Shown: one piece after another, positions 1 through 39,890 of the stretch
Position numbering within the stretch: the stretch's first letter is position 1
Layout: each line of letters starts with the position of its first letter
NCBI GenBank assembly: GCA_015143295.1
Contig: CM026560.1
Location: 8,186,501-8,250,500 of the forward strand
Reading direction: 5' to 3'
DNA from: Tetracentron sinense
Taxonomy: Eukaryota > Streptophyta > Magnoliopsida > Trochodendrales > Trochodendraceae
Length of the DNA stretch: 64,000 nucleotides
Position numbers and translations under genes: made by a program
Notes under the pieces: generated by a model
Databases searched by the model: none
What the model saw: only the letters and a program-made list of their open reading frames with translations
What the model was told of the DNA's origin: nothing

Positions 1-697
1 CCCCCTTTCAAAACGTACGTGAGATGGCTGCCCTAGCTTGGAGAGTGGCTCCCACACGAGCTTGAGCCTTGAACTTGAAGCAAATCCAAGTTTGAGGACG
101 ACCTAGGATGGTCCACCCCTTTGGTTTCTTCCTCAATACCAAACCCTAGGTTAGAGCTTTCTCCTCTTTCTCTCTCTATCTCTCAAAATCCCTCAATGTT
201 GTAAGTGAGGCCTCAAAGGGTCGAGCAAACCCTTATGGGTAAGGGTTTAACACCCAAAAGATGAAAACGCCCTTACTGAAATTTCTGCAAAAACGCGAAG
301 ACCGAGCGATCGGTGGTTATGACCGATCGATCGGTTGCCTACCGAGCGATCGGTGTTATTGACCGATCGACCGGTCAAAAACTCACTCTCTGGAAAATTT
401 CCCCATACAAAATTTCTGACCGTGCGATAGCTACCGATCGATCGGTTATGGACCGATCGACCGCTGACTGAACCGAGCGATCGGTGCTCTGTATGTCTGG
501 ACTGTTTTGACCATATCTTTTGACTCGTTCGTCGGATTTCGACGATTCAACTTGCGTTGGGTTCGTCTTTCGAAAACGCACATTTTTGACATTTCGGAAT
601 TTCCGATTTCTCTCTTATTTATTAATTAGACTATGAGGAAGGCCAATTAGCTACGAAAATGGTATTCATTAAGTATAGAAAAATCCGGGGTGCTACA
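1..697 (-). mobile_element. Ty3/gypsy chromovirus LTR, minus orientation, cut by window edge
   Basis: This segment matches the inner part of the LTRs at 49629-52031 and 61034-63956, including the shared run around 505-565 (CATATCTTTTGACTCGTTCG and the following GACGATTCAACTTGCG). It ends at 697 in GGGGTGCTACA, the complement of the LTR start TGTAGCACCCC. The base after it resumes the RT reading frame of a plus-strand chromovirus at TGCGT, so the LTR is an insertion in that gene. Its other end and the target duplication lie outside the window, so solo LTR and full element cannot be told apart. A weak TATA-like CCATAAGG lies on the minus strand at 231-238. Confidence 0.85.
301..485. promoter_or_regulatory. 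Array of 14-bp palindromes, ACCGATCGATCGGT type, in LTR
   Basis: Copies or near-copies of the palindrome ACCGATCGATCGGT (variants ACCGAGCGATCGGT, ACCGATCGACCGGT) start at 301, 322, 341, 362, 433, 452 and 472. A spacer at 376-432 separates two groups. In element sense (minus strand) the array lies about 60 bp upstream of the degenerate TATA-like site at 231-238. The spacer holds a 26-bp stretch (386-411) that matches the Sirevirus LTR at 25267-25292 with one mismatch. A promoter-proximal regulatory role is an inference from position. Confidence 0.75.
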
Positions 698-3147: not shown

Positions 3148-3429
3148 TGTAGAGCCCCAGACTTTTTCATGCTTAATACATGACACTTTCGTTGTCATTT
3201 TTCCTTTTTAGAGGTATAAATAATAAATAAGTAAGAAATTGGAAATTCTGAAACGTCAGAAATGTTCCTCTTCGAAGTACGAACCCAACGCAAGTTGAAT
3301 CGTCAAAATCGAACGAACGAGTCAAAAGATATGGCCAAAATAGTCTGGACCTGTAGGCAATCGTAGGTCGAAAGGCGCTAAGGACGTAGCTCGGTTATGC
3401 GCTAAGGACGTACTCTGATAACGTATACG

Positions 3430-4010
3430 TTGTGCATCCGTTGTGCAACAGACAACGGGTGCGTTGTGCAACAGACAACGGGTACGTCGTGCAGCTCACA
3501 ACGGGTACATTGTACAGCACCACGAGCACGCTGTACATAAGACAACGGACAACGTGTTCAGCACTGTCCACAACGGACAACGTGTTCAGCACTGTCCACA
3601 ACGGACAACGTGTTTGGCACTGTTCACAGCTCAGCGAGCTCAGCACTATGCACAACACAACGGACACGTGTTCGGCACTATCCACAACGGACAACGTGTT
3701 CGGTACTGTCCACAACGGACAACGTGTTCAACACTATTCACAGCACAACGAGTTGGTGCTATTCACAGCACAACGAGTTGGCACTATTCACGGCACAACG
3801 AGTTGGCACTATTCACGGCACAACGAGTTGGTGCTATTCACAGCACAACGAGTTGGTACTGTTCACAGCACCATGGGTTCGGCACTGTTCACGGCACAAC
3901 GTGTTCAGCACTATTCACGGCACAACGATTTGGCACTATTCACAGCACAACGAGTGGCACTATTCACAGCACCACGGGTTCAGCACTGTCCACAGCTCAA
4001 CTTGTTCAGC
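3430..4010. repeat. 25-28-bp minisatellite inside the chromovirus LTR
   Basis: Two related units alternate in blocks: a 28-bp unit built on CAACGGACAACGTGTTCAGC (for example starting at 3543 and 3571) and a 25-bp unit built on CACGGCACAACGAGTTGGCA (from about 3740). Because the units lack stop codons, all three plus frames stay open across most of the array. It occupies the site of the palindrome array in sister LTRs. Confidence 0.85.
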
Positions 4011-8157: not shown

Positions 8158-10444
8158 ATTCTAAGTGACCCTAAAGACCTAAAGCCTAAGTTCTGATACC
8201 ACTTCTGTTGCGATCCAAAACCCACCCTCGGAGTTAGAGTAAATCTTGGACGACTTATCATGACTTACATGACATGCTTGACAAACCATCCTGTAAAACA
8301 CCCGGAGCATATACAATAGGGGACAATAATAGCGGAAACATAACCAACATAGCACAGCAGAAGATAATCAAACCTCTAAGTATATACAGTGATCCAAGTT
8401 TTGAACAAAATCAAATCACAAAAGAAAGTGCGGACATGCACGCCAAAATACATTAATATACTCTCTCAAGCTCACCCACAGTCACCTAGAACCTACCACC
8501 TAGTAGTAGCCCTCTACCGGAGGTTCCTCCACAGGTTCCTCAACATATTCCTCCTCCACCCATGGGCTGGGAGCACAAATGTCAAAAGGAGCAGCAACTC
8601 CCTCAGTACCTACCGACATAAACGTACGGTTGAGCATGGAATACTTAGCGTATACCAAATGCTAACCAACAGTCACAGCATAACAATAACGATATATCAA
8701 GCAGGAAGAAATTCATAAAATGACAGGAAAGTAACACAGTTTATATTCATGCTTGCATCACATAAAAGCCGATAAAACTCTTGAAATCATCGTGCACTTG
8801 ACTAGACTAAAATACTCTTTTCGTGCTTGAAAACTTGTCATGTCTGTCTTGCTTATCAGTCATGCGTGTCGTGTCATGCGTGTCATGTCAAGCGTGCTTG
8901 CTTGTAATTTAAACATGCTCATGTAACTTGTGAGATGCGCTTGTGAGATGCACTTGGGAGGGAGGGGAGACCCCTCTTTCAATGACATGCACTTGAGAGG
9001 GAAGGGAGACCCTTCTTTCAATGATATACACTTGTGAGGGAGGGGAGACCCCTCTTTCAATGAGATGGGAGGGAAGTGTAAACTCCCTCATGTGCAATGC
9101 TTGTTCTTGTTCTTGACGAAAGCGAGGCAAAACATATCATATGATATGTCCTACCTCTAACATCCTTATTCTTGAACAACACCGGTAAACCATGTCATGC
9201 ATGTCGTGCTCGTGGAATCGTGTACATACTTTCACTTGGAATTAAATATGACATTTGGGATTTCAACAATACATAGAATACCATTAATTTAAACGAGTAA
9301 ATATTCATACCATTAAGAGAAAGAAATTAATCACACTATCATAAACCCTAGCAATTTCATACGCTTTTAAGCATACATTTCTTGATTTACAACTCCTTTT
9401 CTTCACCTTGGCATTTCATCAAACATGTGGTGTGTACATTATTGGTTAAAGCCTACACCATACTTTTCTAGGTGGGTTTATGTTCACAACATACATGTGT
9501 GTTATTATTGGTACAATACCCTTCCCATTTGATTCATCATATCACATACACATGGCATCCTTCGCCCAACATCCATCTTCATTCATGCATCCCAACTCAT
9601 AGCATAGTTATAGTTTAGGAAAAACAAAGAATAATGAAGGAAAAGAGGAAACCATGACTAGGAGGGTAGCAAAAGGTACCGACCTTGAAAAGATGAGGAA
9701 GACCCTTATTCTTGCCGAGGAAGATGCTGCCCTAACTTGGAGAACGTGTCCTTCACTTGCTTGAAGTTGGATTTGAAGAATCTAAGCCTTGAGGTGAGAT
9801 CTAGGGTCCTTGAACTCTTGATTCTTCTCAATTGGAAACCCTAGGTTAGAATCCCCTTTTCTCCTCTCCCCCTTTCTCTCAAATTGATGCCTTAGGGTGT
9901 ATGAACCCCTAATGGCTCGGGCAAGCCTTAATAGGTAAGGGTGAAACGCTCAAATGACGAGAAAGCCCTTAATGAAATCTCTGTAAAACGCGATATACCG
10001 ATCGATCGGTGGTTAATACCGAGCGATCGGTCGCCTACCGTGCAACCGGTGTTCTTGACCGAGCGATCGATCAAAAACATGCTCTCTGGAATTTTTCCCC
10101 ATACAAAAAGTGCACCAGTCGATAGCTACCAATCGATCGGTTGTGAACTGACTGATCGCCAATATGGACCGAGCGATCGGTGCTCTGCAAATTTCTACAC
10201 TGAGTCCATTTTTCCATTCCATCCTCTACTTGGACTTATTCTTCTTCTATTCTAACCTTTTCTAAACAGGACTAGGACCCTTTCAAGGCTTATAGACATT
10301 ATTAAATAATTTATTTAATTAATTGTAGCATTCTTGAAACAATTCTCAAAGTTTCCAATTCTCATTTCATGAAATTGGAGATTACAAGGCATCATGCCTT
10401 GACACACAATCCAATGCATATACAAAAAGTTTTGGGGTTCTACA
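8158..10444 (-). mobile_element. Chromovirus 5' LTR plus leader, minus orientation, truncated
   Basis: The LTR proper is 8206-10444 (minus-strand start TGTAGAACCCC, end GGATCGCAACA). Downstream on the minus strand come a 4-bp spacer, a PBS TGGTATCAGAAC (8190-8201, one mismatch to initiator-Met tRNA) and about 30 bp of leader. This leader matches the leader of the next chromovirus at 15049-15076. The CACTA end at 8157 cuts the rest off. The LTR abuts the integrase of the neighbouring minus element at 10445 and its flanks (ACTTC left, TGCTA right) do not match, so it is a separate truncated insertion. It has palindromes at 9997-10181 and short repeats with AGGGAGGGGAGACCCCTCTT at 8938-9070. Confidence 0.8.
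9997..10181. promoter_or_regulatory. Array of ACCGATCGATCGGT-type palindromes in LTR
   Basis: Copies and decayed copies start at 9997, 10018, 10037, 10058, 10128 and 10168. The spacer contains the complement of GCTATCGACTGG (10115-10126) and a 26-bp stretch (10082-10107). These match the Sirevirus LTR at 25247-25258 (12 of 12) and 25267-25292 (25 of 26). On the minus strand the array precedes a degenerate TATA-like CCTATTAAGG around 9927-9936 by about 60 bp. Confidence 0.75.
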
Positions 10445-15092: not shown

Positions 15093-17556
15093 TGTCGCGC
15101 CCCATAACCCACCCTAGGAGTTAGAGTGAATCTTGGACGAGACTTGACATGACTTGACAAACCATCCTGCAAAAAAGAGTCAGAGTGTACAGAGCGGAAG
15201 CAAATACCTAACATAGCGGAAGTAAAATATCTATCTCATCTATATATAAACAAGTATCCCAAGTTATGTACAATATCCAAAAGACAAGGTGGACATGCCC
15301 ACCGCAAAATATTCAAGTATAACTCTCTCACCCACGCTCAATGTCTTCTAAACAAAACCTAACTAAGGTCAATAGTCCCCATCACCAAGCTGAGGATCCT
15401 CCTGAGGTACCTCTTCAATGTACTCTTCCTCCCATGGACCGGGAGGATATATATCAAAAGAAGCGGTTGCTCCACTAACACTTGCTGACATCAAATGTTC
15501 GACTGAGTATTGAAACACTCAGTGGATACCTACTACTAACCAACAAGTCATAGAAATAGTGCATAATAATAATGATAACAATAAGCAGAACAATAACCTT
15601 AAACAGAACAACAAGCAATTGATAATCATGTATGCTTGAAATCATGATCGGCGAAACCTCGGTAAATCATCGTGCGCTTGTCTTGTCTTGTTAATTACAT
15701 TTTAAATCATGTTTCTGCATGTGAAAACTTGTCTTCTCACTTTTCTTGTCATGTCATGTTCTTGTCTTGTACTTGTGAAAACTTGCTTGAATGAACATGA
15801 ATGCAAATGCAGGTATGCTTGTCATGATATGATATGCACATGCTTGCTTGCTTACTTGAATTTAAACGTGCTTGCTTGTCATGCATGCTTGGGATGTTAG
15901 TGCCCTTGAACAACTTGAAGTTGGGAGTGTAAGCTCCCTTCAACGAAACATGTCAAACTACTTGACGTCAGGAGTATAAACTCCCTTCAGCGAAAATGGA
16001 ATAGAAGCAACTTGAAGTCAGGTGCAAGCACCCTACGTGGAAACATGCATGCTTGAAAGGCACACTAACATCTTGCTTGTCCTTGTGAAAAACGAGGTAA
16101 GACATACCCGAAAATATGCCCCACCCTTTTTTTTACCAACCCTTACGTTTGGCCTTGTCATGGTGTTCATGAATCGAGTCATTTTATTCTTGTTTTTCAT
16201 GAAATCAAAATCGGTGTTGATGCTTGAAAAACCCTAACCCTACATAAATGTCATGCTCATGAGATCGTGTACAATTTACACATGAAATTAATGAACATAG
16301 CATTTCATGGAAACACTTCATTGAAAGCAAGTAAATTTACAATCATGCAATTCTAGAGAGCGAGTAAATCAACAATTATGTTATTCTAGAAAACGATTAA
16401 CAATCATTAGAGTATTTGATCAAGATTAGCTTTTGGGAAAACCACGTGAAATCATGCTTTTATAGACTTAGTCAAATTCTTTTAATTTCCATACAAGCAT
16501 TTCATCAAACATATGGTGGTCAACATTCTTGTGTCATTTATTTACGTTTTTCATGTTCCAACATTTCATCAATCACATAGGGTGCGTCCATTATGTGTAC
16601 ATTGCCCTTCTCATTTGTTTTCATCACACCACACATCTATGGTATCCATCTCATCCAACCCAACCCATCCATTCACAACCCCATTTCAAATCATGTAACA
16701 ACTTAGGGAAAGCAAGAAGATAGAGAATACAAGAAATAAAGGAAGAAAAAGATGGCAAGTTGGGGAATAGGGTACCGACCTTCAATGGATGAGGAAAACC
16801 CTCCAAAAACATGTGTGGAGTCGCTACCGAGCTTGGAGGAGGTGCTCCTCATGTTCTTTACCTTGGATTTGAAGAATCCAAGGATTTGGGGATGATCTAG
16901 GTCACCCAAGTGATCAATCTCTCCTCAAGGATAAAAACCCTCTCTTGGAAATCCTCCCTCTCTCTCAATCTCTCAAAGACTCTCTTTAGGTTTAGTGTAA
17001 ACCAAAAACCCCAAATGTAACCCCCTATTTATAGGCAAAGGGGAGAAACCTTAAAACTCCCGACATAAAATTCTGGGTTTACGACCTACGATTGATCGTA
17101 AATCTGCTACGATCGGTCGTAGGTTTCTACGATCGATCGTAAACGTTACAGAGAGTTTGGCCATTTTTGGAATTCTACGATCAATCGTAGGTTTTCTACG
17201 ATCGATGTAACTCACCTATGATCGTTCGTAGGTTCTGTACAATCGTTCGTAAATCTGACAGTAAATTTTCTAGATTTTCCCATTTTGGTATTTCGGCCAT
17301 AACTTTTCACTCGTTCGTCGGATTATGACGATTCAACATGCGTTCGACTCGTCATTCGAAGAGGAAAAATTTTGGCATTTTAGAATCTTTCAATTCTTCA
17401 TTATTCAAGAACCAAATTATCCCCAAAGTTGACTGATCTACAAATGGAGTTCAGCACCCTGGATTTTCAAAATATCCGACTTCGGAAATCCTACTTATAA
17501 CTCAATAAAATGACCTTAAAGCTTTAATACATGTCAAAAATATCCGGGGTGCTAGA
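15093..17556 (-). repeat. 5' LTR of the minus chromovirus (2464 bp)
   Basis: On the plus strand the LTR begins TGTCGCGCCCC and ends GGGGTGCTAGA, where sister LTRs end CTACA, so the terminal C has mutated. The right flank is part of a Sirevirus LTR (17557-17941), showing insertion in that element. On the minus strand a clear TATAAATA lies at 17026-17033. No gene is present. Confidence 0.85.
17026..17251 (-). promoter_or_regulatory. LTR promoter: TACGATCGATCGTA palindrome array and TATA box
   Basis: Seven 14-bp copies of TACGATCGATCGTA type (TACGATTGATCGTA, TACGATCGGTCGTA, TACGATCAATCGTA and others) start at 17087, 17108, 17128, 17176, 17198, 17217 and 17238. The minus-strand TATAAATA at 17026-17033 lies 53 bp downstream of the array in element sense. 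The core CGATCGATCG is the same as in the ACCGATCGATCGGT type; only the flanking bases differ, and they differ symmetrically. Confidence 0.75.
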
Positions 17557-19796: not shown

Positions 19797-21611
19797 TGTA
19801 AACAGCCCAATTTTACACCCCTTTTACCTCTTTTTGCACCCTCAAAACCTTTTAAAAAAACCTCTCAAAAACACTTTTTAAATGTCTCTTTAAACCCTAT
19901 TTCCACATACACAAATTTCTGAAAAATGCCCTTGAAGCTGAAAATGACCAAAATGCCCCTGGAGTGCAACATGACCAAAATACCCCAAAAAAATATTTAA
20001 AAACTCACATTTTATCTAAATAACTTTTCATGGATTTATTAGTTCAATTTCAGCTATTTCCAGGCTCAAATTAGGCTGAAAACGCAAAATCAAGCTTCTA
20101 GCGAACCTGAAAATGTCACGTGGCAATGCAAAAAATAGGGGTTTGAGCTGGTCGTTTTTGCCAAAAATGACCAACCCATTTTGGGCAGTTTTGCTTGGTC
20201 GTTTTTAGTAAAAACGACCAAAGTTTTTTGGTTTTTAATGTTTGGTCATTTACCATAAATGACCAAATAAATATCTGGTTTTTTTTTGTCATTTTTCCCC
20301 TATAAACCGTCTTACTTTCCATTATTTCGGGCTTTTTGGCTTTGGTCGTTTTTCACATAAACAATCCAAGTTTTTTTGGTTTTTTCAAAACCTATAAATA
20401 CTCCCTCCTCTTCTCTCGTTTCTCTCATTCCCAAAAGCCCTTCTCTTCATTTTCATATTTTCGAAAACCATATTCTAAAGTTTGGATTCCCGGGAAGCAC
20501 GATTTCTTGAAGAATCAGTTCTCGGGACCTCTTTTCAAAACTATTTTTAGATTTCCTGGAAGGTAAAATATCGCCAAACTCTGAATTTTCCTTAGTCTTT
20601 TATTAGTTTTAATTACTTTATTCTTTTTAAATACTTAGATTGCTTGTCTTGTCGAACCCTTCACGGTTTTATTTAAACCTAGCCTACCCTGTCGAACCTC
20701 TGCCCGGTTTTACTTAAACTTATCCTACCCTATCGAACCCTTGCCTGGTTTTTTTTAAACCTAGCCTACCCTGTCGAACCCCTGTCCGGTTTTATTCAAA
20801 CAAACCAACCATGTCGAACCCCTGCCTGGTTTTATTCAAACAAAACGAACCCTATCGAACCCCTGCCCAAACTTCGGTTCGAACAAACCAACCCTATCGA
20901 ACCTCTGTCCGAACCTCGATTCAAACCCTGGTTCAAACCCTACCCACCTAGTCGAACTTCTGTCTGAACCCTGCTTCAAATCCTATCAAACTCTAACCCA
21001 ACCCAATGCTCCTTGACATGAGCTAAAACTGTCCAAATGCTCCCCAACAAGAGCTTAAAAGGCCCAAGTGCTCTTGAATAGGAGCCCAAACCATTCAAAA
21101 TGCACCCTAACATTTAAAAGACAAATCTCAGCCTATCAAACACCCACAATCCAAATTAAACCATCAACTACCCCTCTGAAACTACGTGTAACTTGATTCC
21201 ACTAACAGTGGATATGTAGGCAACCCTGATCGGGTTCAGCTCACCTAGGATAGAGCCCCTATCCTATCCCTGCTTATTTCAACTTGTACATTACTATCAA
21301 TATGATATCTGCTTAGCATATAAATGAAATTTCAAGCTTCTCTTATGGTTTCCCCCACTTTAATTCAGACTTAGGGAGTAGGTAACCATCTCCAGATGGG
21401 AGTTTAGGAGTGCCTAACACCTTCTCCTAACTCAAATGAATCCTTACCTTGAACTCTATTTCTAGACCAAAGCCTTATCCAACCTTTTCAAGGACCCTAT
21501 TTACCCTCACAATCTAAATAGGTGGCAAATCTCTCTTTTTCTGTATTTTTAGCACTATTCCTCTTCGGGTTCAATCCTGATCGGGAATGGGGTTAAAATC
21601 CCGGGTCTACA
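19797..21611 (+). repeat. 5' LTR of the Tat/Ogre-like element (1815 bp)
   Basis: It begins TGTAAACAGCCCAATTTTAC and ends GGGTCTACA. The first ~1.1 kb matches 38813-39890. A TATA-like CCTATAAATA lies at about 20391-20400, conserved in the 3' copy near 39402. A downstream stretch of degenerate ~42-bp repeats (CTACCCTGTCGAACCCTTGC / CCGGTTTTACTTAAACC) spans about 20641-20990. Confidence 0.85.
20641..20990. repeat. ~42-bp tandem repeats in the Tat/Ogre-like LTR
   Basis: Units of about 41-43 bp contain CCTGTCGAACCCTTGCC followed by CGGTTTTACTTAAACCTA. About seven imperfect copies occur here; five cleaner ones occur in the 3' LTR at about 39640-39890. They lie downstream of the TATA box, so they would be in the transcript. 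Confidence 0.75.
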
Positions 21612-24408: not shown

Positions 24409-24876
24409 GGCGCACCAGCCTAAGCCACTCTATAGCCGGCTTTGAGCAGTTTCACCAGTTCTTTGTCTTTTTGCTTTATTCCTTAATTTCTCTTTTTTGC
24501 AAATGGTCATGATGGCCCAAGTTGAAGTCTTCCCGGTCAGTTAGCATATTGGCTAGTGGCCACTTGTCTTTATCTTCCGCAATTCATTCTGTACATTCTT
24601 ACATACTCTAATGAAATCTCTCACTTTTGTTAAACCTGTCTTGCTTATTACTCCGAGATGCTTAGTTTTAGGAACTGAACTAGATTCTAAGCCTGCAAAG
24701 GATAGTTGCATGATGATCGGGTGAGTAATCTAAAAACTCATGACCCTTTCATGAATTAGAAAGGTACTCTGCTCCCTAAAGATTTCAAGGCGAGCTACCA
24801 ATCCATCAGAAGACAAGAAGCAAAGGAGCGATGAAGACCTCCCCGAGCTATCAAACATCAAACATATTTGAACAAG
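24409..24876 (+). other. Non-coding stretch after gag of the Tat/Ogre-like element
   Basis: No protease or RT follows gag. The sequence is T-rich at first and has no sustained frame. It ends in ACAAG (24872-24876), the target site duplicated by element A. Confidence 0.6.
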
Positions 24877-25192
24877 TGTAAATCCCTAAATAGGTGTTGG
24901 CAAATTCCGTGATCATTAGATAGGTCAGTTGAGTCGAGTCCTCGAGTCATGTTCAACTTGTCAGAAAAGAAGAGAAGAGCTAAAGCTTAAAGAAGATAGA
25001 AGAAAGAGAAGAAAAAGGTTCTACTCCGGATCTAGACAGGTAATGGACTTAGAGACCCCTACCTAGGTTTGATTTGACTTAGATAACTCTAAAAATACCT
25101 AGGAGGATAGATTTAAGCCTACCAAAGTTATTTGATCTTAGTTGAATCAAATAAAAATAAAATGAATTAATTTTGGCAAAAATTCTGTCTCA

Positions 25193-25377
25193 ACCGATCG
25201 CTCGGTATTGCGACCGATCGATCGGTGGCCTACCGAGCGATCGGTGGCTATCGACTGGACTAAATATTTGTATGGGGAAAATTTCCAGAGAGATGTTTTA
25301 AGACCGAGCGATCGGTCATTAGAACCGATCGATCGGTTGTGAACCGAGCGATCGGTTGTGAGCACCGATCGATCGGT
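25193..25377 (+). promoter_or_regulatory. Seven ACCGATCGATCGGT-type palindromes upstream of LTR TATA
   Basis: Copies start at 25193, 25213, 25232, 25303, 25324, 25343 and 25364, mixing ACCGATCGATCGGT, ACCGAGCGATCGGT and its complement ACCGATCGCTCGGT. A 57-bp spacer divides three from four copies. The array ends 45 bp before the TATA box. The same array is repeated in the 3' LTR at 35048-35232. Palindrome clusters have been reported in Sirevirus LTRs; what binds them is not known to me. Confidence 0.8.
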
Positions 25378-25422
25378 CCCCGTAAAAAGAATTTTTCTTT
25401 TTCTGGATTCCTTTTTTAACCC

Positions 25423-25430
25423 TATATAAA
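25423..25430 (+). promoter_or_regulatory. LTR TATA box of element A
   Basis: TATATAAA lies 45 bp after the palindrome array and about 680 bp before the LTR end; the transcription start is expected some 30 bp downstream. The 3' LTR copy is at 35278-35285. Confidence 0.7.
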
Positions 25431-26110
25431 CAACTTTTGAGAGACCTAATTCGTGTCTTTGATAATTTTTGAAAGAGTAGAGGTCTGAGAAACTCTTCTA
25501 GGGTTTTTCTAATTGTTTTTATTAGATCTTTGTGATCCCTCCTCTTTCTTAGATCCTAGAGAATGCAAGTATAGATTAAAATCTTTGATCTTGCATTGTG
25601 TGATCTCAGATCTGTATGAGATCCCTCTAGGGTTTGAAATTTACTAAATTGATTCACAACCCTACACCTTGTGTGTGTGTCCGGTGTTTGATCCGGAGCC
25701 TTCGTGGAAGGAGATCGATCGTGTGTGATCGTGGATTTGAAGTTGCTTGAAAAGATTTGGTCGGTGTGGAACCGAAGCTGCTAAGGCGGAGATCGAACCT
25801 GCTGGTTCGTGGAAATCAAGAGTAAGAGTCTATACCTAGGAACATAGTTTCTGTTTTGGTAAGGTCTTATCTTGTACTTGATATCTTTTCATAGTGAAGT
25901 TTATTGCTGGACAAGGTCCCGTGGTTTTTTCCCGTTAGGGTTTTCCACGTAAAAATCTTCTGTGTTTGATTTGTGTGGATTGTCTGATTGAGTTAATCAT
26001 TGATTTTTAAACATATTAATTGAAAAATTAAAATTGGTTAGAAATTATTAGATAGACCTATTCACCCCCCCTCTAGGTCTTAGAGATCATTGATCTGGAT
26101 AAATTTCAAT

Positions 26111-26175: not shown

Positions 26176-27450
26176 ATGAGTACTCTAAGAGAAGGAGGAT
26201 CCGTCTCTCGTCCCCCACTTTTTGATGGAAATAATTATGCATACTGGAAAGCCAGAATGAGAGCCTTTCTCAAATCAATTGACGAGAGAATTTGGATGTC
26301 TATACAGAATGGGTGGACTACGCCCGTAAAAACTGTAGGTGATTTGACTGTCGTCAAATATTCTGATGAATGGACCAGAGAAGAGCTTGATTCAAGTGGA
26401 TGGAACACTAAAGGTCTCAATGCTATCTTTACTGCAGTCACTGCTGAGGAATTCAGACGAATTTCTTCATGTGAAACAGCAAAGGAGGCTTGGGACATTC
26501 TTGAAATTACCCATGAGGGTACTACCACTGTTAAAATCTCAAAACTCCAAATGTTAACCACCAAATTTGAACATTTAAACATGGACGACAATGATACTTT
26601 TGATGAATTCTATGCAAAACTTAGTGACATTGTCAACGCTAGTTTCAATTTAGGTGAGAAAATATCTGAGTCCAAAATAGTTAGAAAAGTCCTTAGATCT
26701 CTCCCAGAGAGATTTCAACCCAAAGTCACTGCAATCGAAGAGAGTAAAAATGTTGACTCTCTGAAGATTGAGGAATTGGTTGGATCACTCCAAACCTATG
26801 AACTCAATCTACGTCCATCCAAGAAGAATAAATCTTTAGCCTTGAAAACCATCAAGGAAACTTTGGATGAGGATGACAGTGATGGAGAAATGAATGAGGA
26901 AGAAATGGCTCTTTTCGTTAAAAAATTTCGAAAATTTTTTAGAACGAAAAAGAGGTTTAATCCCAAACAGGGAGGAAAATCTTTTGATAAGTCAAAGTCT
27001 AAGCCCTGGGAAAACAAGAAAAATTCCAAAAGTGGCGACAAGAAATCCCAAGGTGTTCAATGTTATGAATGCCATGGCTTCGGTCATATTTCACCTAACT
27101 GTCCTAACAAGAAGAAGAGTAAGGGCAAGGTGATGAATGCCTGTTGGGATGACAGTGATTCCGAGAATGAAGAATCGGACAGTTCCTCTTCAAGTGAAGA
27201 TACTGGAAATCATACGGCTTTCACTGTTTCCCTATCTGGGATTCTTGAGACTACCTCTGCGGTTGATGAAAAGGATAGAAGTGATGAAAGTATTCATACT
27301 GAGTCAAGTGATGACTTACTGAAGAGTCAAACTGACTCTGAAAGTGATGAAGATTTGAAAACAACTTATGATAAGTTGTATGCTGAAAGTTTAAAACTGA
27401 CTAAAACAAAAATCTCTTTGAGCAAAAAAACTCAAATTCATTCAAAATGA
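26176..27450 (+). CDS. gag: Element A gag (capsid/nucleocapsid region)
   Basis: The frame opens at ATG 26176 (MSTLREGGSVSRPPLF), 54 bp after the PBS, and gives 424 residues. Residues 15-220 form the copia gag domain (YAYWKARMRAFLKSIDERIW, VRKVLRSLPERFQPKVTAIE). A Lys-rich stretch (about 250-290) precedes the CCHC zinc knuckle CYECHGFGHISPNC at residues 296-309, and an acidic Ser-rich tail follows. Gag assembles the cytoplasmic particle and binds RNA. The stop at 27448-27450 follows a seven-A run (27424-27430). The next frame continues the same coiled-coil region without a break, so gag and pol were one frame and this end is caused by a one-base length change, real or a sequencing error. Confidence 0.9.
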   Translation: MSTLREGGSVSRPPLFDGNNYAYWKARMRAFLKSIDERIWMSIQNGWTTPVKTVGDLTVVKYSDEWTREELDSSGWNTKGLNAIFTAVTAEEFRRISSCETAKEAWDILEITHEGTTTVKISKLQMLTTKFEHLNMDDNDTFDEFYAKLSDIVNASFNLGEKISESKIVRKVLRSLPERFQPKVTAIEESKNVDSLKIEELVGSLQTYELNLRPSKKNKSLALKTIKETLDEDDSDGEMNEEEMALFVKKFRKFFRTKKRFNPKQGGKSFDKSKSKPWENKKNSKSGDKKSQGVQCYECHGFGHISPNCPNKKKSKGKVMNACWDDSDSENEESDSSSSSEDTGNHTAFTVSLSGILETTSAVDEKDRSDESIHTESSDDLLKSQTDSESDEDLKTTYDKLYAESLKLTKTKISLSKKTQIHSK

Positions 27451-29605
27451 AAGAGATACCTGTAAACTAGTAGCAGAAGAGAAGAGTGCACTAGTTAGTC
27501 AGTTGGAAAAAGAAAAAGAAGCATTTGTTATAAAAGTTCAATGTCTTTTGGAAGAGAATGTCTCATTGACTAATGTGGTCAGAAAATTAGAAGATGAAAG
27601 AGACACTTCCATGAAAGAAATTGAAGAGTTAAAAACTCTGCAAATGGAGCTGGAAACTTTTAAAGTCTCTCTTGTTGATAAGGTGAAATTTCTTGAAAAA
27701 GAACACCAAATTACCCTTAAAGACAAGACTGACTTGATTCAGAAGGTCTATACTCTTGAAAAAGAAGTGAGAATGTTTGGTAACACCAGCTGCCTAGATG
27801 AATTAGTCAGAAAGTATGGATCAAATTCTAGTAGATCTGGGATAGGACATGTTGACACACCAACTGGTCCTTTAGCTGTTGGAACAATGGCGAGTGCAGT
27901 GTTTGAGCCAATACATTCTGAACCCAAAGAAAATTTACCTTCTACATCAAGTACTAAGGCTTATACAAATATTGTAAAGCCTAGAAATACAGCTCCTAGA
28001 GTGAATGCTTTAAGGAATCAAATTCCAGTTAGAAGAAATCTTCCTCCTCTACCAAGATTCATACCCACATGTCACTTTTGTGGTGTGAGAGGTCACATTC
28101 GACCTAATTGTAATGCATTTAGGAGAGCTCCCCAAAATGGTTCATGGAACCAAAATCTGAGTCAAGGGACTCTTCAAAGGCAGATTCAGGTTCTAGCTGA
28201 AAAGTCTAGAATGTTGAGCGATGATGTTAACAGAATTGCTCAAATCTCTAGGACAAGGACTGGTCAATTTATTCCAAATGATTATTCAAGAGGAAATAAT
28301 TTGACCTATCACAAAACTAGAACTGAACAAAACAGAAAAAGGTCAAGGAGGACAAAAAGGAAAAAGATCTCTACTACACAGATTAATGATCAAAGATCTA
28401 AACAAAGTTTAAAGACTGTGTATGTGAGAAAGGAAGACCTTAAGTGCTTTGTCATTCATACTGCCTTGAAAGCCCAAAACACAGAAATGTGGTACTTCGA
28501 TAGTGGGTGTTCTCGGCATATGACAGGTAACAAGTCCTTATTTATTCAATTTGAGGACTGTCCTGATGGGACTGTTACTTTTGGTGATGGAAGCAAGTCA
28601 TTAGTCAAAGGAAAGGGTATCATCAATTCACCAGGCATACCTAAATTGAAAGATGCCTTGTTTGTTGAAGGACTGAAAGCTAATTTAATTAGCATAAGTC
28701 AACTATGTGATGATAATCATGCTGTGCACTTTACCCAAAATAAATGCTTAGTCATTAATGGTAAAGGTAAGTGTGTTCTAGAAGGATTGAGAACCACTGA
28801 CAATTGCTACGGCTTAACTCCCAGTATTATTCCCTCAAATGTCTGTTATAAGACTAGAATTGAGGAGGTTGATTTGTGGCACCGAAGACTAGGTCACATG
28901 AACTTCAAAGACCTATGTAAAATCTCTAAGCAAGAGCTTGTGAGAGGTGTTCCCAAACTAGGAAAGCCTTCTACTGCTGTGTGTGGGCCATGTCAAATTG
29001 GTAAACAAATTAGGACCCCACATAAGAAGACTTCAAGTATTGCTACTTCATATCCACTGGAATTAATTCATATGGACCTTATGGGTCCTACAAGAACTGA
29101 AAGTCTAGGTGGAAAGCGATACATCCTAGTCATGGTTGATGATTTCTCTAGAATGTCTTGGGTGGCATTTATAAGAGAGAAATCCGATGCTTTTGACAAT
29201 TTCAAAAGTATTTGCTTGAAAATTCAAAATGAGAAAAGATGCCCAATCACTCGAATTCGAAGTGATCATGGAAAGGAGTTTGAAAACTCTAAGTACAATG
29301 ACTTTTGTGATGAGTCTGGTATCAAACATGAATTTTCTGCACCTATTACACCTCAGCAGAATGGTGTAGTAGAGAGGAAGAACAGGGTTCTCCAAGAGAT
29401 GGCTAGAGTTATGCTTCATAGCAACAATCTAGCTTCTCATTTCTGGGCTGAGGCAGTTCACACTGCTTGCTATATAGTTAATAGAGTTTTTGTAAGACCT
29501 GGAACAAGGAAAACCCCATATGAGTTGTGGAATAACAAGAAACCTAGTGTAAAGTACTTTCGAGAATTCGGAAGTAAATGCTATATCCTTAAGGATAGAG
29601 AGTAA
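27431..29605 (+). CDS. pol: Element A gag C-terminus, protease and integrase
   Basis: This is the continuation of gag in the next frame from the A-run at 27424-27430; no native ATG is needed. Counting from the TTG at 27503, residues 1-95 are a coiled coil. A second zinc knuckle CHFCGVRGHIRPNC is at 190-203. The aspartic protease site WYFDSGCSRHMTGN has D333. Integrase has the HHCC zinc motif (H460, H465, C494, C497) and the catalytic triad D525, D588, E624 with 35 residues between the last two. Protease cleaves the polyprotein and integrase inserts the cDNA. The frame ends in TAA at 29603-29605, after which the same frame goes on, so this stop is a single nonsense change. Confidence 0.88.
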   Translation, partial: LKFIQNERDTCKLVAEEKSALVSQLEKEKEAFVIKVQCLLEENVSLTNVVRKLEDERDTSMKEIEELKTLQMELETFKVSLVDKVKFLEKEHQITLKDKTDLIQKVYTLEKEVRMFGNTSCLDELVRKYGSNSSRSGIGHVDTPTGPLAVGTMASAVFEPIHSEPKENLPSTSSTKAYTNIVKPRNTAPRVNALRNQIPVRRNLPPLPRFIPTCHFCGVRGHIRPNCNAFRRAPQNGSWNQNLSQGTLQRQIQVLAEKSRMLSDDVNRIAQISRTRTGQFIPNDYSRGNNLTYHKTRTEQNRKRSRRTKRKKISTTQINDQRSKQSLKTVYVRKEDLKCFVIHTALKAQNTEMWYFDSGCSRHMTGNKSLFIQFEDCPDGTVTFGDGSKSLVKGKGIINSPGIPKLKDALFVEGLKANLISISQLCDDNHAVHFTQNKCLVINGKGKCVLEGLRTTDNCYGLTPSIIPSNVCYKTRIEEVDLWHRRLGHMNFKDLCKISKQELVRGVPKLGKPSTAVCGPCQIGKQIRTPHKKTSSIATSYPLELIHMDLMGPTRTESLGGKRYILVMVDDFSRMSWVAFIREKSDAFDNFKSICLKIQNEKRCPITRIRSDHGKEFENSKYNDFCDESGIKHEFSAPITPQQNGVVERKNRVLQEMARVMLHSNNLASHFWAEAVHTACYIVNRVFVRPGTRKTPYELWNNKKPSVKYFREFGSKCYILKDRE

Positions 29606-31492
29606 CTGGGAAAATTTGAATCCCGGAGTGATGAAGGGATATTTCTTGGGTATTCCACCAACAGTAGAGCTTATCGAGTGTATAACTTGAGAACCTCTAC
29701 AATTATGGAGTCCATAAATGTAATTGTGGATGACTCTGGTGTTGAAAATGTGCAATGTGAGGATGATGAAAGTGCTGAAAATGAAGATGTTGAAATTATT
29801 TCAACTTCACCTATTGATAAGCAAACATCTCCATTAAAACCTACACATCCTAGGGTCATGAGTCCTCACACCTCCACTGATATTATTGGTGATGTTGAAA
29901 GTGGAGTGAGAACGAGGAAACAAATTGAAAATGAAGTTAGCTACATTTGCTATACTTCATCTTTTGAACCCAAGAATGTAGCTGAAGCTCTTGCAGATGA
30001 TAATTGGATAAATGCAATGCAAGAAGAGTTACTTCAGTTTACTAGGAATGATGTTTGGTATTTAGTACCTAGGCCTAATAATACAAATGTGATAGGTACC
30101 AAATGGATTTTCAAGAACAAATCTGATGAAAAAGGTACTATCATAAGAAATAAGGCTAGGTTAGTTGCACAAGGATATACCCAAATTGAAGGTATTGACT
30201 TCGATGAAACTTTTGCTCCTGTAGCCAGACTAGAATCAATAAGAATTCTTCTAGCTGTGGCTTGTAATATGAAATTCAAACTTTTTCAAATGGATGTTAA
30301 GAGTGCCTTTCTGAATGGCATTCTACATGAAGAAGTCTATGTGGAACAACCAAAAGGGTTTGAAGATCCACATCACCTTGATCAAGTTTATCGACTAAAA
30401 AGGGCCCTCTATGGTTTAAAACAAGCTCCAAGAGCTTGGTATGAGAGGCTGACTACTTATCTCTTGGAAAACGGATTTTCGAGAGGGGGAGTAGACAGAA
30501 CCCTTTTCATAAAGAAAGTGAAAGGTGATATTGTCATCGCCCAGATATATGTTGATGACATAGTATTTGGTTCCACATTAGACTTACATGCTCATTCATT
30601 TGCTGAACAAATGAAAAATGAATTTGAAATGAGCATGGTTGGTGAGCTAAGTTTCTTCCTTGGTCTTCAGATCAAGCAATTGGATTCTGGGATCTCAGTA
30701 TCTCAAATCAAATATGCAAAAAATTTAGTGAAGAAATTTGGAATGAGTTTTGCTAAGCATGCTAGGACTCCTATGAGTACTACTATAAAACTTAGTAAAG
30801 ATACTTCAGGGAAGGATGTCGATCAGACTAATTATAGAAGCATGATTGGTAGTTTGCTCTACCTAACTGCTACTAGACCCGACATAGCCTTTAGTGTTGG
30901 AGCATGTGCCCGTTATCAAGCAAATCCCAAAGAGTCTCACTTAGTTGCTGTCAAGCGTATCATTCGCTATGTGAGTGGAACTTTGTCCTTAGGCCTCTGG
31001 TATTCTTTCGATACAAATGTCATTGTTGTGGGGTATTCTGATACTGATTGGGCTGGAAATACTGATGATAGGAAAAGCACCTCCGGCGGGTGTTTCTATA
31101 TTGGAAACTGCTTGGTTGCTTGGCTTAGCAAAAAGCAGAATTCCATTTCCTTGTCTACAGCCGAGGCTGAGTATATAGCAGCTGGTAGTTGTTGCACCCA
31201 ACTTCTGTGGATGAAACAGATGTTGAAGGATTATGGAATTGATCAAAGCACTATGATTGTGTATTGTGATAACACAAGTGCAATCAATATCTCCAAAAAT
31301 CCAGTGCAACACTCTCGCACAAAGCATATAGACATTAGGCATCACTTCATCCGTGATCTTGTTGAGCAAAAAGTTGTGTCTATTGAGTATGTCCAAACAG
31401 AGAATCAATATGCGGACATTCTCACAAAACCTTTAGATTCCCTTAGGTTTGAACTCCTTAGGAAATCCATCGGTTTGTGTGGAGTTGAGTAA
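29606..31492 (+). CDS. pol: Element A integrase C-terminus, reverse transcriptase and RNase H
   Basis: The frame is the same as the preceding one and starts directly after the nonsense codon at 29603-29605; the first ATG is at 29678 but is not a native start. Numbering from that ATG, RT begins around residue 110 ([15 protein letters not shown]). It has the first catalytic aspartate D206 ([12 protein letters not shown]) and the pair D293-D294 in YVDDIVFGS. RNase H follows with D455 (YSDTDWAG), the STAEAEYIA motif and CDNTSAI, ending near [19 protein letters not shown]. The order integrase then RT is diagnostic of Ty1/copia. All catalytic residues are present, so this part looks competent. Confidence 0.9.
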
Positions 31493-32615: not shown

Positions 32616-32673
32616 ACCGATCGCTCGGTGCTAAAGACCGATCGATCGGTCTTTCGTGAACAGGGTTATAAAA
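32616..32673 (+). promoter_or_regulatory. Putative internal promoter of the env-like gene, element A
   Basis: Two 14-bp palindromes, ACCGATCGCTCGGT (32616-32629) and ACCGATCGATCGGT (32637-32650), precede a TATA-like TATAAAA (32667-32673). The palindromes are the ones found in this element's own LTR promoter. The env-like frame opens 130-240 bp downstream. A promoter function is inferred from this arrangement and from the parallel arrangement in element B (55230-55456). Confidence 0.55.
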
Positions 32674-32807: not shown

Positions 32808-34160
32808 GTGCATTTTCTTTGCTTTAGATTGATTTTCTCATCTAGGGCATCATTTCTTGCATTTTCTTCAATGGCGTTCGTTTTGTCGTTAATCCTTCTT
32901 GCATATCTCATGTCTGGCATCCCCAAACGTCGGAGGTTGGTCCTCAACAACCAAGAGGATCCTCCTCAAGATGAGGAAAACCAAGAGCCCTTTACTTTCA
33001 CTCCAATAGGGCATGGTATTTCCATAGGGGACAGGCCAATTCGTAGAATGATTGATTCTACAATTGAGAATCGTCAAAAATCTCTGGCTGATAAAACTCG
33101 GAAAAATAAAGGAAAAGCTTCATCTTCCCAGTCTAGTAAGTTATCCCAGTTTATCAGTCCTACTGCTGCTCAACTCTATAGTGAGTATTTTAGTAAGAAA
33201 GGTGTTATGGTTGAAAGGGACATACATATTTCTGATTTTGGTGATTATTATCTTCCTACTCTCATTTCAGATCGTCAATGGGAAGGTATACTTACCTTAT
33301 CCGGTCCTGCTTCTGTCCAGTTAGTTAGAGAATTTTACTCTAATTTTTCTGAAATCAACCAGAAAAAATGGTCATTCAAATCTCGAGCATTAGAACAATC
33401 TGTTGTCATAAATGCTGATTTGGTTTCTAAATTCCTTGGATGTCCTAGAGTTCCAAATGCATATTATCCTTATAATTATAAAACTGATGAGGATAAAGAC
33501 TCCATGGAACATGTAGTTACCTTTCTAAGTGGTACTCCTTCGTTTTGGGTTGGGTCTCTTATTGAAGTGGCGAAACTCACTAAGGATGCTAGACTAGTAA
33601 ACCTTGTTATGAGTGCAAATATCCATCCAAAGGTTCATACTGCGGACCTTAGGGAAGATAGAGCTAGATTTTTGTTTAGTCTTCTACGTGGGCGTGATAT
33701 TGATCTTGCCGCTCACATCATTGACTTGATGATCCAAGCCCATCAAACTAATACAGCAGTTGGAGCCCTACCATTTGGTTCACTCATCACTAAACTTCTT
33801 GGTTCTCAAGGAGTTATCGCTCCTCCTGGTGTTCCAACTCGAGTTCCTAAGGGTCCAATCACCAAAAAGACCCTAGCTCAGAGTTTTTCACATGCCTCAG
33901 TTCGAGATACAGAGGAGGGAGCAGAAGTTGGTGCTGGGTCATCTCGTCCTCCTCCTACCACTATGGACGATCTTGGGAGGATGATGAGAGAGATGCAGAT
34001 GGATCTCCGGACTCATATTTCTTCATACGAGGAGTTTACTACAGAGGTTCGTGGTCGACTTGGATCTCTCGATGCAGCAGTGCTTGGAGTACAGAGAGAT
34101 GTTCGAGATTTTCGAACTTACTATGAGTCACAGCTCACTTCTGATGATGAGCAAGAGTGA
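32808..34160 (+). CDS. Env-like (third) protein of element A
   Basis: An intact 450-codon frame lies between pol and the 3' LTR, where Sireviruses carry an env-like gene. Possible starts are ATG 32808, 32871 and 32910; the last (MSGIPKRRRLVLNN) best resembles the start of the counterpart in element B (MPPRMKNAS...KKKSR). With the upstream starts the protein gains a hydrophobic stretch (residues 22-35, AFVLSLILLAYLM) that could be a membrane anchor. A Lys/Arg/Ser-rich segment (85-110) is followed by a domain like the 'putative plant transposon protein' domain of Sirevirus and Athila-type elements. The C-terminus (about 385-440) looks like a coiled coil with heptads. No virus-like envelope features such as a furin site or fusion peptide are evident, so the function is unknown. 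A splice-donor-like AAG|GTAAGA lies at 32796-32804. Confidence 0.75.
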   Translation: MHFLCFRLIFSSRASFLAFSSMAFVLSLILLAYLMSGIPKRRRLVLNNQEDPPQDEENQEPFTFTPIGHGISIGDRPIRRMIDSTIENRQKSLADKTRKNKGKASSSQSSKLSQFISPTAAQLYSEYFSKKGVMVERDIHISDFGDYYLPTLISDRQWEGILTLSGPASVQLVREFYSNFSEINQKKWSFKSRALEQSVVINADLVSKFLGCPRVPNAYYPYNYKTDEDKDSMEHVVTFLSGTPSFWVGSLIEVAKLTKDARLVNLVMSANIHPKVHTADLREDRARFLFSLLRGRDIDLAAHIIDLMIQAHQTNTAVGALPFGSLITKLLGSQGVIAPPGVPTRVPKGPITKKTLAQSFSHASVRDTEEGAEVGAGSSRPPPTTMDDLGRMMREMQMDLRTHISSYEEFTTEVRGRLGSLDAAVLGVQRDVRDFRTYYESQLTSDDEQE

Positions 34161-34731
34161 TGGTTCGTGATAGAAGTTGTTTTTTAGTCGAGTGACAGAC
34201 TTTGTTTACCATTTTGATGTACTTTGAATTGGTTGTACTTAGTACAAACCTTCTTGGTTATTATTGACTTGTTATGGATATATATATTTGAATGGTTTAT
34301 GCTCCTTACTTTCTATCTCATCTCCTTTCAATGGTTTATGATTTTCTTTTCTAATCCACCTTTGGCATTTCGAGCCAAAAAGGGGGAGAATATGTTATGG
34401 ATGAGTTATGGATGATGAATGGTTATAGATTGTGTTTTGGATTGTGAATGGTTTGGAATACTAACCTGTTATGGATTGTGAATGGTTTTGAATGGTTATA
34501 CATATTTTCATCCTATATGTTATTTCCCATGCTTCACAGGTTTTTGATTTAGCATGTGCAGGCAAACAGGTTCTAAGTTTGGTAAATCATGACAAGTTAA
34601 CATGTCAACAGTCATGTAATTATTTTTGAGTCATGTAAAGGTCAATTTTCCATTTTTGAATCAATTGGGAAAATTTGAACCTAGTATATGAATTAGTTTT
34701 GTTTTGTCCCGGAATTGCCAAAGGGGGAGAT
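34161..34731 (+). other. 3' untranslated region with two polypurine tracts, element A
   Basis: Polypurine tracts AAAAAGGGGGAGAA (34377-34390) and AAAGGGGGAGA (34720-34730) are both preceded by a TTGGCA- or TTGCCA-like stretch. The second directly precedes the 3' LTR and is the expected primer for plus-strand synthesis. Several near-repeats of TGGTTATGGATTGTGAATGG lie between them. Confidence 0.8.
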
Positions 34732-35963
34732 TGTAAATCCCTAAATAGGTGTTGGCAAATTCCGTGATCATTAGATAGGTCAGTTGAGTCGAGTCCTCGA
34801 GTCATGTTCAACTTGTCAGAAAAGAAGAGAAGAGCTAAAGCTTAAAGAAGATAGAAGAAAGAGAAGAAAAAGGTTCTACTCCGGATCTAGACAGGTAATG
34901 GACTTAGAGACCCCTACCTAGGTTTGATTTGACTTAGATAACTCTAAAAATACCTAGGAGGATAGATTTAAGCCTACCAAAGTTATTTGATCTTAGTTGA
35001 ATCAAATAAAAATAAAATGAATTAATTTTGGCAAAAATTCTGTCTCAACCGATCGCTCGGTATTGCGACCGATCGATCGGTGGCCTACCGAGCGATCGGT
35101 GGCTATCGACTGGACTAAATATTTGTATGGGGAAAATTTCCAGAGAGATGTTTTAAGACCGAGCGATCGGTCATTAGAACCGATCGATCGGTTGTGAACC
35201 GAGCGATCGGTTGTGAGCACCGATCGATCGGTCCCCGTAAAAAGAATTTTTCTTTTTCTGGATTCTTTTTTTAACCCTATATAAACAACTTTTGAGAGAC
35301 CTAATTCGTGTCTTTGATAATTTTTGAAAGAGTAGAGGTCTGAGAAACTCTTCTAGGGTTTTTCTAATTGTTTTTATTAGATCTTTGTGATCCCTCCTCT
35401 TTCTTAGATCCTAGAGAATGCAAGTATAGATTAAAATCTTTGATCTTGCATTGTGTGATCTCAGATCTGTATGAGATCCCTCTAGGGTTTGAAATTTACT
35501 AAATTGATTCACAACCCTACACCTTGTGTGTGTGTCCGGTGTTTGATCCGGAGCCTTCGTGGAAGGAGATCGATCGTGTGTGATCGTGGATTTGAAGTTG
35601 CTTGAAAAGATTTGGTCGGTGTGGAACCGAAGCTGCTAAGGCGGAGATCGAACCTGCTGGTTCGTGGAAATCAAGAGTAAGAGTCTATACCTAGGAACAT
35701 AGTTTCTGTTTTGGTAAGGTCTTATCTTGTACTTGATATCTTTTCATAGTGAAGTTTATTGCTGGACAAGGTCCCGTGGTTTTTTCCCGTTAGGGTTTTC
35801 CACGTAAAAATCTTCTGTGTTTGATTTGTGTGGATTGTCTGATTGAGTTAATCATTGATTTTTAAACATATTAATTGAAAAATTAAAATTGGTTAGAAAT
35901 TATTAGATAGACCTATTCACCCCCCCTCTAGGTCTTAGAGATCATTGATCTGGATAAATTTCA
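34732..35963 (+). repeat. 3' LTR of element A (1232 bp)
   Basis: Same length as the 5' LTR and identical by eye except one base (T where the 5' copy has C at 25411). It is followed by the target duplication ACAAG. Confidence 0.93.
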
Positions 35964-35968
35964 ACAAG

Positions 35969-38812: not shown

Positions 38813-39890
38813 TGTAAACACCCCAATTTTGATCTCCTTTTACTTCTTTTTGCACCCTCAAAACCTTTTCAAAAAACCTCTCAAAAACACTTTTTAAATG
38901 TCTCTTTAAACCCTATTTTCATATACCCAAATTTCTGAAAAAGGCCCCTGAAGCAGAAGAATGACCAAAATGCCCCTAGAGTGAAAAATGACCAAAATAC
39001 CACTAAAAATACTAAAAAACTCACATTTTATCTAAATTACTTTTCTTGGATTTATCAATTCAATTTTGGCGGTTTTCGCGCTTAAATCAAGCTTAAAACG
39101 CAAAATCGGGCTTCTGGTGAACCTGAAAATGGCATGTGGCGATATAGAAAATAGGGGTTTGTCGTTTTTGCCAAAAAAGACCAGCCCATTTTGGGCATTT
39201 TGCTTGGTCATTTTTAGTAAAAACGACCAGAGCTTTTTGGTTTTAAATGTTTGGTCATTTATACCATAAACGGCCAAATAAATATCTGGTTTTTTTAGTC
39301 ATTTTTCCCCCATAAACCGTGTTACTTTCCGTTATTTTGGGCTTTTTGCCTTTGGTCGTTTTTCACTTAAATGATCCAATTTTTTTTTGGTTTTTTCAAC
39401 TCCTATAAATACCCCCGCCTCTTCTCTCATTTCTCTCATTCCCAAAAGCCCTTCTCTTTCCTTTCCTCATATTCCAGCGTTTGGATTCCCGGGAAACGTG
39501 ATTTCGAAGAATCGGTTCTCGAGACCTCTTTTTCAGAAATATTTTTAGATTTCCTGGAAGGTAAAATATCGTCAAACTCTGACTTTTGCTTAGTCTTTTA
39601 TTACTTTTAATTACTTTATTGTTTTTAAATACTTAGACTACTTGCCCTGTCGAACCCTTGCATGGTTTTATTTAAACCTAGCCTACACTATCGAACCCCT
39701 ACCCGGTTTTACTTAAACCTATCCTACCCTGTCGAACCCTTGCCCGGTTTTACTTAAACCTATCCTACCCTGTCGAACCCTTGCCCGGTTTTACTTAAAC
39801 CTATCCTACCCTGTCGAACCCTTCCCGGTTTTATTTAAACCTAGACTTCCCTATCGAACCCCCTGGCCGATTTTATTCAAACAAACCAAC
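38813..39890 (+). repeat. 3' LTR of the Tat/Ogre-like element, interrupted
   Basis: It begins TGTAAACACCCCAATTTTGA and follows the 5' LTR with many differences. It includes a TATAAATA near 39404 and five ~42-bp repeats. It stops at 39890, in a stretch equal to the region around 20810 of the 5' LTR, where a minus copia LTR begins. The remaining ~0.8 kb is not found further right. Confidence 0.85.

Follow-up and report, generated by a model that had tools for sequence, protein, structure and literature searches.

A palindromic module common to Ty1/copia and Ty3/gypsy LTRs of Tetracentron sinense and its probable transfer from a Sirevirus-type element

How does an array of palindromes in the LTRs of a Ty1/copia element come to recur in LTRs of Ty3/gypsy elements? 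The window, a stretch of 64,000 nucleotides from the genome of Tetracentron sinense, raises this question, as the same module stands in both LTRs of a copia element, here called element A, and in two gypsy LTRs, G1 and G2 (Table 1). The first-pass annotation had noticed a cassette common to copia and gypsy LTRs and had favoured the transfer of a module over convergence. We confirm the observation, and transfer is supported by a 26-bp non-palindromic core, a geometry of seven positions, a common orientation and edges of homology that fall at the outer palindromes in most pairs. Taking all evidence together, we consider it probable that a U3 enhancer cassette of Sireviruses moved into a chromovirus LTR and then spread.

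Table 1. Coordinates of element A, the module and contrasting gypsy LTRs, counted from the first letter of the window
Feature	Position	Strand	Remarks
Module in Ty3/gypsy LTR, G1 type	301..485	-	core 386-411; family by flanks and by pol in L036
Contrast: gypsy 3' LTR start and array	3148..4001	+	G1-homologous on both sides (79% left, 69% right); different tandem array, no core
Module, more decayed, in Ty3/gypsy LTR, G2 type	9997..10181	-	core 10082-10107; gypsy pol on same strand, 10448-12410
Contrast: gypsy LTR with TACGATCGATCGTA-class palindromes, no core	17086..17285	-	likewise 51616-51817 and 62955-63180
Target duplication ACAAG of element A	24872-24876 and 35964-35968		
5' LTR of element A, 1232 bp, TG...CA	24877..26108	+	one mismatch to 3' LTR over 1233 aligned bases
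Module in 5' LTR of element A	25193..25377	+	14-bp palindromes start at 25193, 25213, 25232, 25303, 25324, 25343 and 25364, around core
Degenerate fourth palindrome position with GCTATCGACTGG	25246..25259	+	
Core, 26 bp, non-palindromic, TTTGTATGGGGAAAATTTCCAGAGAG	25267..25292	+	
LTR TATA box of element A	25423..25429	+	45 bp after last palindrome; similar place in 32/32 copia copies
Copia gag (PF14223), integrase (PF00665), reverse transcriptase RVT_2 (PF07727)	26176..31492	+	three mechanical ORFs
Two internal palindromes	32616-32629, 32637-32650	+	upstream of internal TATAAAA, 32667-32673
Env-position ORF of element A	32808..34160	+	first ATG 32871; PF20167; hydrophobic segment near first ATG
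Polypurine octamer AGGGGGAG	34722..34729	+	exactly 10 bp upstream of 3' LTR
3' LTR of element A	34732..35963	+	module 35048-35232, core 35122-35147

The domain order of element A, with gag PF14223 and integrase followed by RVT_2, is the copia order expected of a Sirevirus. Palindromic repeated motifs (RMs) in Sirevirus LTRs were described by Bousios et al. in 2010 (PMC2829016), and further traits given in the accessible part of that paper recur here, namely the placement of the octamer close to the 3' LTR with additional copies in the linker (at 32566 and 34381 in element A, which has one more inside pol at 30484) and clustered palindromes upstream of TATA within the upper half of the LTR, with extra copies ahead of the env-like gene. 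The same portion of text terms RMs Sirevirus-specific and absent from classic copia elements, gives them a CGG-CCG signature and at least eight copies per element, and reports them from 13 elements rather than from all Sireviruses, with Tnd-1 as an exception to the signature. Element A has seven copies per LTR and two internal ones, and their arms read CCG...CGG, not CGG-CCG. We thus speak of a Sirevirus-type element rather than a proven Sirevirus, although the paper knows both the exception Tnd-1 and Sireviruses without RMs. The insertion is recent, because the two LTRs differ at a single position and the ACAAG duplication still flanks them. Pfam placed the env-position ORF in PF20167 and in no other family, and a comparison with a large protein database, in which 8000 candidates were scored, gave no relative at E <= 0.001; with this result and its env-like look, the ORF was set aside as a candidate for the factor that binds the palindromes.

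The match between element A and the gypsy LTRs, claimed earlier for the array and its spacer, is real and was understated, the similarity being wider than proposed. The 26-mer at 25267-25292 differs from the complements of 386-411 and 10082-10107 by one mismatch each, exactly as first described, and lies within a gapless alignment of 186 nt between 25193-25378 and the complement of 300-485, with 76% identity. A and G1 agree in 52 of the 88 columns that lie outside the seven palindromes, and in 27 of 62 when the 26-mer is left out as well. With the palindromes masked, local alignment scores reach 50 (A-G1) and 52 (A-G2), against maxima of 30 and 31 in 2000 dinucleotide shuffles per pair, and the best score among 1222 other stretches of the window, with both strands counted, is 29. 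The likeness is thus not limited to the palindromes, and these scores rule out chance as the source of the spacer similarity. At up to nine mismatches on both strands, the 26-mer otherwise recurs in the window only in the 3' LTR of element A (no mismatch) and at one further place (nine mismatches).

In both superfamilies the palindromes, ACCGATCGATCGGT and its variants (hereafter R palindromes), start at -74 or -75, -54, -35, +36, about +57, +76 and +97, counted from the core's first base. This geometry also holds for copies that had not been chosen by an exact core. Eleven of 12 such copia copies have palindromes at -74, -54, -35 and +36, the twelfth being L107, a member of a different Sirevirus family with palindromes at -24, 35, 56 and 96; all 11 such gypsy copies have those at -54 and -35, 10 that at -74 or -75, and 7 that at +36. 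At -21 stands a degenerate palindrome that holds the 12-mer GCTATCGACTGG or a variant of it. The first-pass annotation had the identity of this 12-mer (25247-25258) to the complement of 10115-10126 right but treated it as plain spacer, which it is not, since it fills the degenerate fourth palindrome position. Sirevirus L094 has CAGTCGACTGG at nearly the same place, and comparison by eye suggests that the 12-mer is what remains of a palindrome from an older class.

The similar distance to the TATA box, also proposed earlier, stands for the copia copies, where TATA lies 154-161 bp from the core start in all 32, and for 22 of the 48 gypsy copies, in which [CG]TATAWA follows at 134-197 bp (153-175 bp in 20 of the 22); in the remaining 26 gypsy copies no such motif was found within 420 bp.

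The LTR at 1-696 lies on the minus strand; it abuts the plus-strand pol at 659-3046 but does not belong to it, since the element of that pol has its own 3' LTR, which begins near 3148 and bears another array. The place of the LTR at 1-696 in Ty3/gypsy is borne out by genomic copies. At 696/697 the end of the minus-strand gypsy LTR meets the start of the plus-strand gypsy pol fragment, probably through insertion into pol. For the G1 type the family is given by L036, where the same LTR type follows about 95 bp after the end of a gypsy pol (88% identity). Across the LTR types placed in Ty3/gypsy, pol ends just before the LTR in L023, L027, L029, L031, L032, L036, L069, L070, L072, L078, L082 and L086, and in this set L036 and L023 are of G1 type and L032 has the G2-type upstream flank. 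The ORF at 659-3046 encodes RT-RNaseH and integrase, and we call these gypsy elements chromoviruses on the strength of its match to the chromodomain PF00385 (E 4.5e-5), which at 23.7 bits lies below the cut-off of 25.1.

Across the 1.16-Gb genome the core pattern occurs at 8,444 places (4,228 + 4,216) and its reversed control at none, and the palindrome pattern, with perfect palindromes counted on both strands, has 52,480 places in forward and 52,525 in reverse orientation, where its reversed control has 3 and 4. A collection of viral contigs held no exact match to the core. The first 30 core copies listed, all on contig 1, comprise 28 gypsy and 2 copia LTRs, where 27 of the gypsy LTRs were recognized by their flanks and L028 only later, through its homology to two copies next to gypsy pol (L082 and L086). 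A flank word of the copia LTR, at up to three mismatches, has 954 + 1,040 genome places, and the module is present in all 30 perfect matches fetched (with a diverged core in L045 and L046). These two sets, 20 further core places that we picked and the window yield 80 distinct module copies, 48 in gypsy LTRs and 32 in copia LTRs; 7 of the 48 were at first without class and were assigned by adjoining pol or LTR homology. Three candidates for copia elements with gypsy-type LTRs (L015, L026 and L034) were rejected and are probably best read as gypsy LTRs inserted in copia sequence; their copia RT pieces are 33-39% identical to the RT of element A and, in L026 and L034, lie on the other strand.

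The homology between copia and gypsy copies has edges that can be located. In 1339 of 1518 copia-gypsy pairs, which share sequences and hence are not independent, the alignment starts on the left between -100 and -61, at the outer palindromes, and in 1258 it ends on the right between +97 and +130, again at the outer palindromes; the exceptions fall inside the array (154 left, 253 right) or beyond its edge (25 left, 7 right). Among gypsy copies, 125 of 1126 pairs show homology that sets in at the left array edge, with nothing related to its left, and continues far past the right one, in some of them at 95-96% identity (for example, L078/L085), and gypsy LTRs with the same flanks can carry quite different arrays (3148-4306 against G1; L133 against L141). 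Such edge-limited homology, together with equal flanks around different arrays, indicates that the array behaves as an exchangeable slot of the LTR, and the palindromes are likely to be the seeds of recombination. The exchange may have gone by template switching in shared particles or else by gene conversion among copies in the genome. In L104, a copia relative of element A, the core and five palindromes have been lost in a deletion from palindrome to palindrome, which looks like one recombination event between them. At 3439-4001 the gypsy 3' LTR has a long ACAACG / CACTATTCACAGCACAACGAG array in the slot where related LTRs bear the palindrome module.

In which direction did the cassette move? 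The first-pass annotation did not choose between the two. We sampled Sirevirus LTRs through the junction word CAAAGGGGGAGATTGT at the start of the 3' LTR (918 + 923 genome places, none in the control), taking 40 in order from 100 listed places on contigs 1 and 2 after leaving out eight known copies of element A, all of which carry the module. R palindromes are present in 13 of the 40, and the core in 12 of these 13, the exception being L104 with its deletion. A related core, at a threshold equalled by at most 1 of 200 shuffles, also occurs in 11 of the 27 LTRs without an R array, where the arrays are of class GGGTCGACCC in seven and CGGTCGACCG in one, and no class reaches two copies in L094, L111 and L119 (L111 and L119 have a single R-like palindrome each). 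The core at this threshold is absent from the other 16, among which L110, L114, L116 and L121 come near (7-11 of 200 shuffles) and some of the 700-bp stretches used may end before the array. An earlier test of the first 12 LTRs with 300 shuffles gave the same picture. L107, which represents a second Sirevirus family with R palindromes, is 68-69% identical to element A over the aligned LTR parts, and its core is three mismatches away. L108 and L109, with Sirevirus-type LTR starts, lack a detectable core and have palindromes of yet another class, CGTTCGAACG.

A matching gypsy sample was drawn by a flank word of the gypsy LTR (5,808 + 5,653 genome places, none in the control). The exact core lies near 26 of 100 listed places, and 20 LTRs were sampled among the 74 without it. 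All 11 with R palindromes have the core, at 1-6 mismatches, and none of the 9 with other arrays or none has it at the threshold, the nearest being L139 (6 of 200 shuffles); if core and palindromes were independent, this split would have a chance of 1 in 167,960, as calculated by hand. The four gypsy LTRs with other arrays in the window (at 3148, 17086, 51616 and 62955) likewise hold no core better than shuffles. As the core is not tied to one palindrome class in Sireviruses, and the two occur together in every gypsy LTR examined, the gypsy elements appear to have received both at once. A second palindrome class in gypsy LTRs, CTACGATCGATCGTAG, shares the centre CGATCGATCG and differs at the ends; it occupies 17086-17285, 51616-51817 and 62955-63180, has 1,681 exact genome places and is the main class in none of the 40 sampled Sirevirus LTRs.

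Copy number and diversity had first led us to the opposite direction, with the cassette arising in gypsy LTRs and captured once by a copia lineage. The preponderance of gypsy LTRs among the first 30 listed core copies and the greater diversity of the gypsy copies favour it, as does the unrooted module tree, in which the copia modules form one shallow clade (100/100) on a long stem and a midpoint root falls among gypsy; the shallowness is partly due to the choice of copia copies by a perfect flank word, and the gypsy copies of the tree were found by exact core, so that divergent ones are under-sampled. Against a gypsy source stand the related core in Sirevirus LTRs without an R array, compared with none in the 9 + 4 gypsy LTRs with other arrays, and the R palindromes in the second Sirevirus family, L107. 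We dropped this reading on the distribution of the core and regard it as unlikely. When the tree is rooted on other Sireviruses (62 columns), the R-type cores of copia and gypsy form a group that includes L107 (86/80), and 33 of 34 gypsy rows form one clade (93/89), a single gypsy clade not being rejected (AU p 0.588). L107, an R-type Sirevirus put in the outgroup, falls in the ingroup beside gypsy L075 (96/90), a pairing that makes a second exchange possible. The forks of the rooted tree are weak, and the trees agree only weakly with transfer from Sirevirus (copia) to chromovirus (gypsy), a direction that we infer from the whole of the evidence and regard as strongly but not finally supported.

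An independent origin of sites for the same host factor in both superfamilies would have a precedent in the Sirevirus palindromes of distant species, which are alike without LTR homology according to the accessible text of PMC2829016, but convergence would have to produce a non-palindromic core of 26 bp with one mismatch, seven positions in common and the full co-occurrence of core and palindromes in the gypsy sample, and the masked-spacer scores against shuffles also make it unlikely; we find it barely credible. Nor is a third donor, some other mobile element or a host promoter that supplied the cassette separately to both superfamilies, more than very improbable. Few of the 8,444 core places were examined and the element types covered are copia and gypsy, which leaves room for such a donor, but all 80 distinct module copies (30 of them chosen by a copia flank) lie in copia or gypsy LTRs, and it is unnecessary given that the core is native to several Sirevirus families. 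A different objection concerns what the palindromes do, as they could act mainly as RNA hairpins, U3 lying at the 3' end of the transcript, rather than as DNA-binding sites. The stretch 25193-25378 folds at -98.9 kcal/mol (z -8.86; no shuffle out of 200 did as well), and in maize an excess of small RNAs is said to gather at the palindrome clusters of Sireviruses (PMC10760457, in its accessible text, on Bousios et al. 2016). Strong folding is expected of any run of palindromes, however, and the fixed spacing of about 20 bp, the non-palindromic core and the placement upstream of TATA, in one case an internal TATA, would fit DNA sites better, so that we think a main role as hairpins quite unlikely.

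Our preferred explanation is that the module is a Sirevirus U3 enhancer cassette in which phased 14-bp palindromes, about two helical turns apart, flank the 26-bp core upstream of TATA. The sequence of the palindromes would turn over between Sirevirus families, with a recognizable core persisting in many. Recombination at the outer palindromes would have brought a copy of the version with ACCGATCGATCGGT palindromes out of a Sirevirus LTR and into the slot that the array occupies in a chromovirus LTR. Several gypsy LTR subfamilies would have acquired it afterwards, in part because copies were exchanged again at this edge. On this view one DNA-binding factor, or one set of factors, most likely encoded by the host, should act on elements of both types. 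We place moderate confidence in the enhancer function and put forward the mechanism of exchange and the bound factor as tentative proposals. Palindromes precede TATA in the copia LTR and in part of the gypsy LTRs, as well as the internal TATA and env-position ORF of element A, and their position upstream of two different TATA boxes in element A is the best hint of promoter function. Together with spacing near two helical turns and a core conserved between element families, the position before TATA suggests phased protein sites.

A bolder possibility, which we rate as doubtful, is cis-hijacking, where the palindrome class would be a specificity code for a trans-acting activator or anti-silencing factor and the core a shared docking site, and where the chromovirus would have captured the Sirevirus code and with it joint activation. 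The GGGTCGACCC, CGGTCGACCG, CGTTCGAACG, CTACGATCGATCGTAG and ACAACG arrays would then be competing codes of an arms race and would be swapped at the LTR slot. The VANC/VANDAL systems of Arabidopsis, as far as the accessible parts of PMC5735166 and PMC10398659 describe them, likewise have arrays of short motifs in non-coding parts of the elements, with fast turnover between related elements, and a close parallel is AT9TSD1, an unrelated element that carries the VANC6 motif and responds to it (PMC5735166, same portion). In VANC systems the element encodes the binding protein, and no protein of this kind was identified here. The extra ORF of element A has PF20167 and a hydrophobic segment near the first ATG; an element-encoded factor is suggested here by analogy only. 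The word palindrome does not occur in the main text of PMC5735166, and the accessible passages describe no exchanged cassette with a fixed core.

How much of this is new? Palindromic Sirevirus promoters were already known, and CGGTCGACCG, which the accessible part of PMC2829016 gives for a Vitis element, occurs in the Sirevirus LTR L089 of the present genome. That part mentions neither a conserved non-palindromic core nor sharing with Ty3/gypsy. Regulatory sites that recur among families are known from heat-responsive elements in Brassicaceae COPIA LTRs (PMC5059998, judged from its title and accessible text); by its title, that work concerns recurrent evolution within COPIA, whereas here one homologous module stands in two superfamilies. 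Literature searches, which covered few subscription journals, returned no title reporting a palindromic module common to copia and gypsy LTRs, and searches with the exact motif returned only titles on a bacterial regulator and on lung cancer. As far as these searches go, a cassette that two superfamilies have in common, whose core is conserved and whose edges can be traced, is new.

If the explanation is true, Ty3/gypsy elements received an entire promoter cassette from Ty1/copia, one with edges that can be traced and thousands of copies in one genome, so that switches, and not genes alone, appear to move between mobile elements. The case would serve as a natural experiment on how a single regulator gains hold of mobile elements that are not related, and the conserved non-palindromic core to which it points in the LTRs of Sireviruses could be assayed directly. 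Promoter arrays exchanged whole, beyond local duplication, would also change how LTR families are compared.

Tandem repeats occur elsewhere in the window. A 41-bp repeat (TGTCGAACCCCTGCCCGGTTTTA...) at 20650-20868 and 39645-39861 is common to related elements, and 50324-50768 holds 5.2 copies of an 86-bp repeat with 91% matches.
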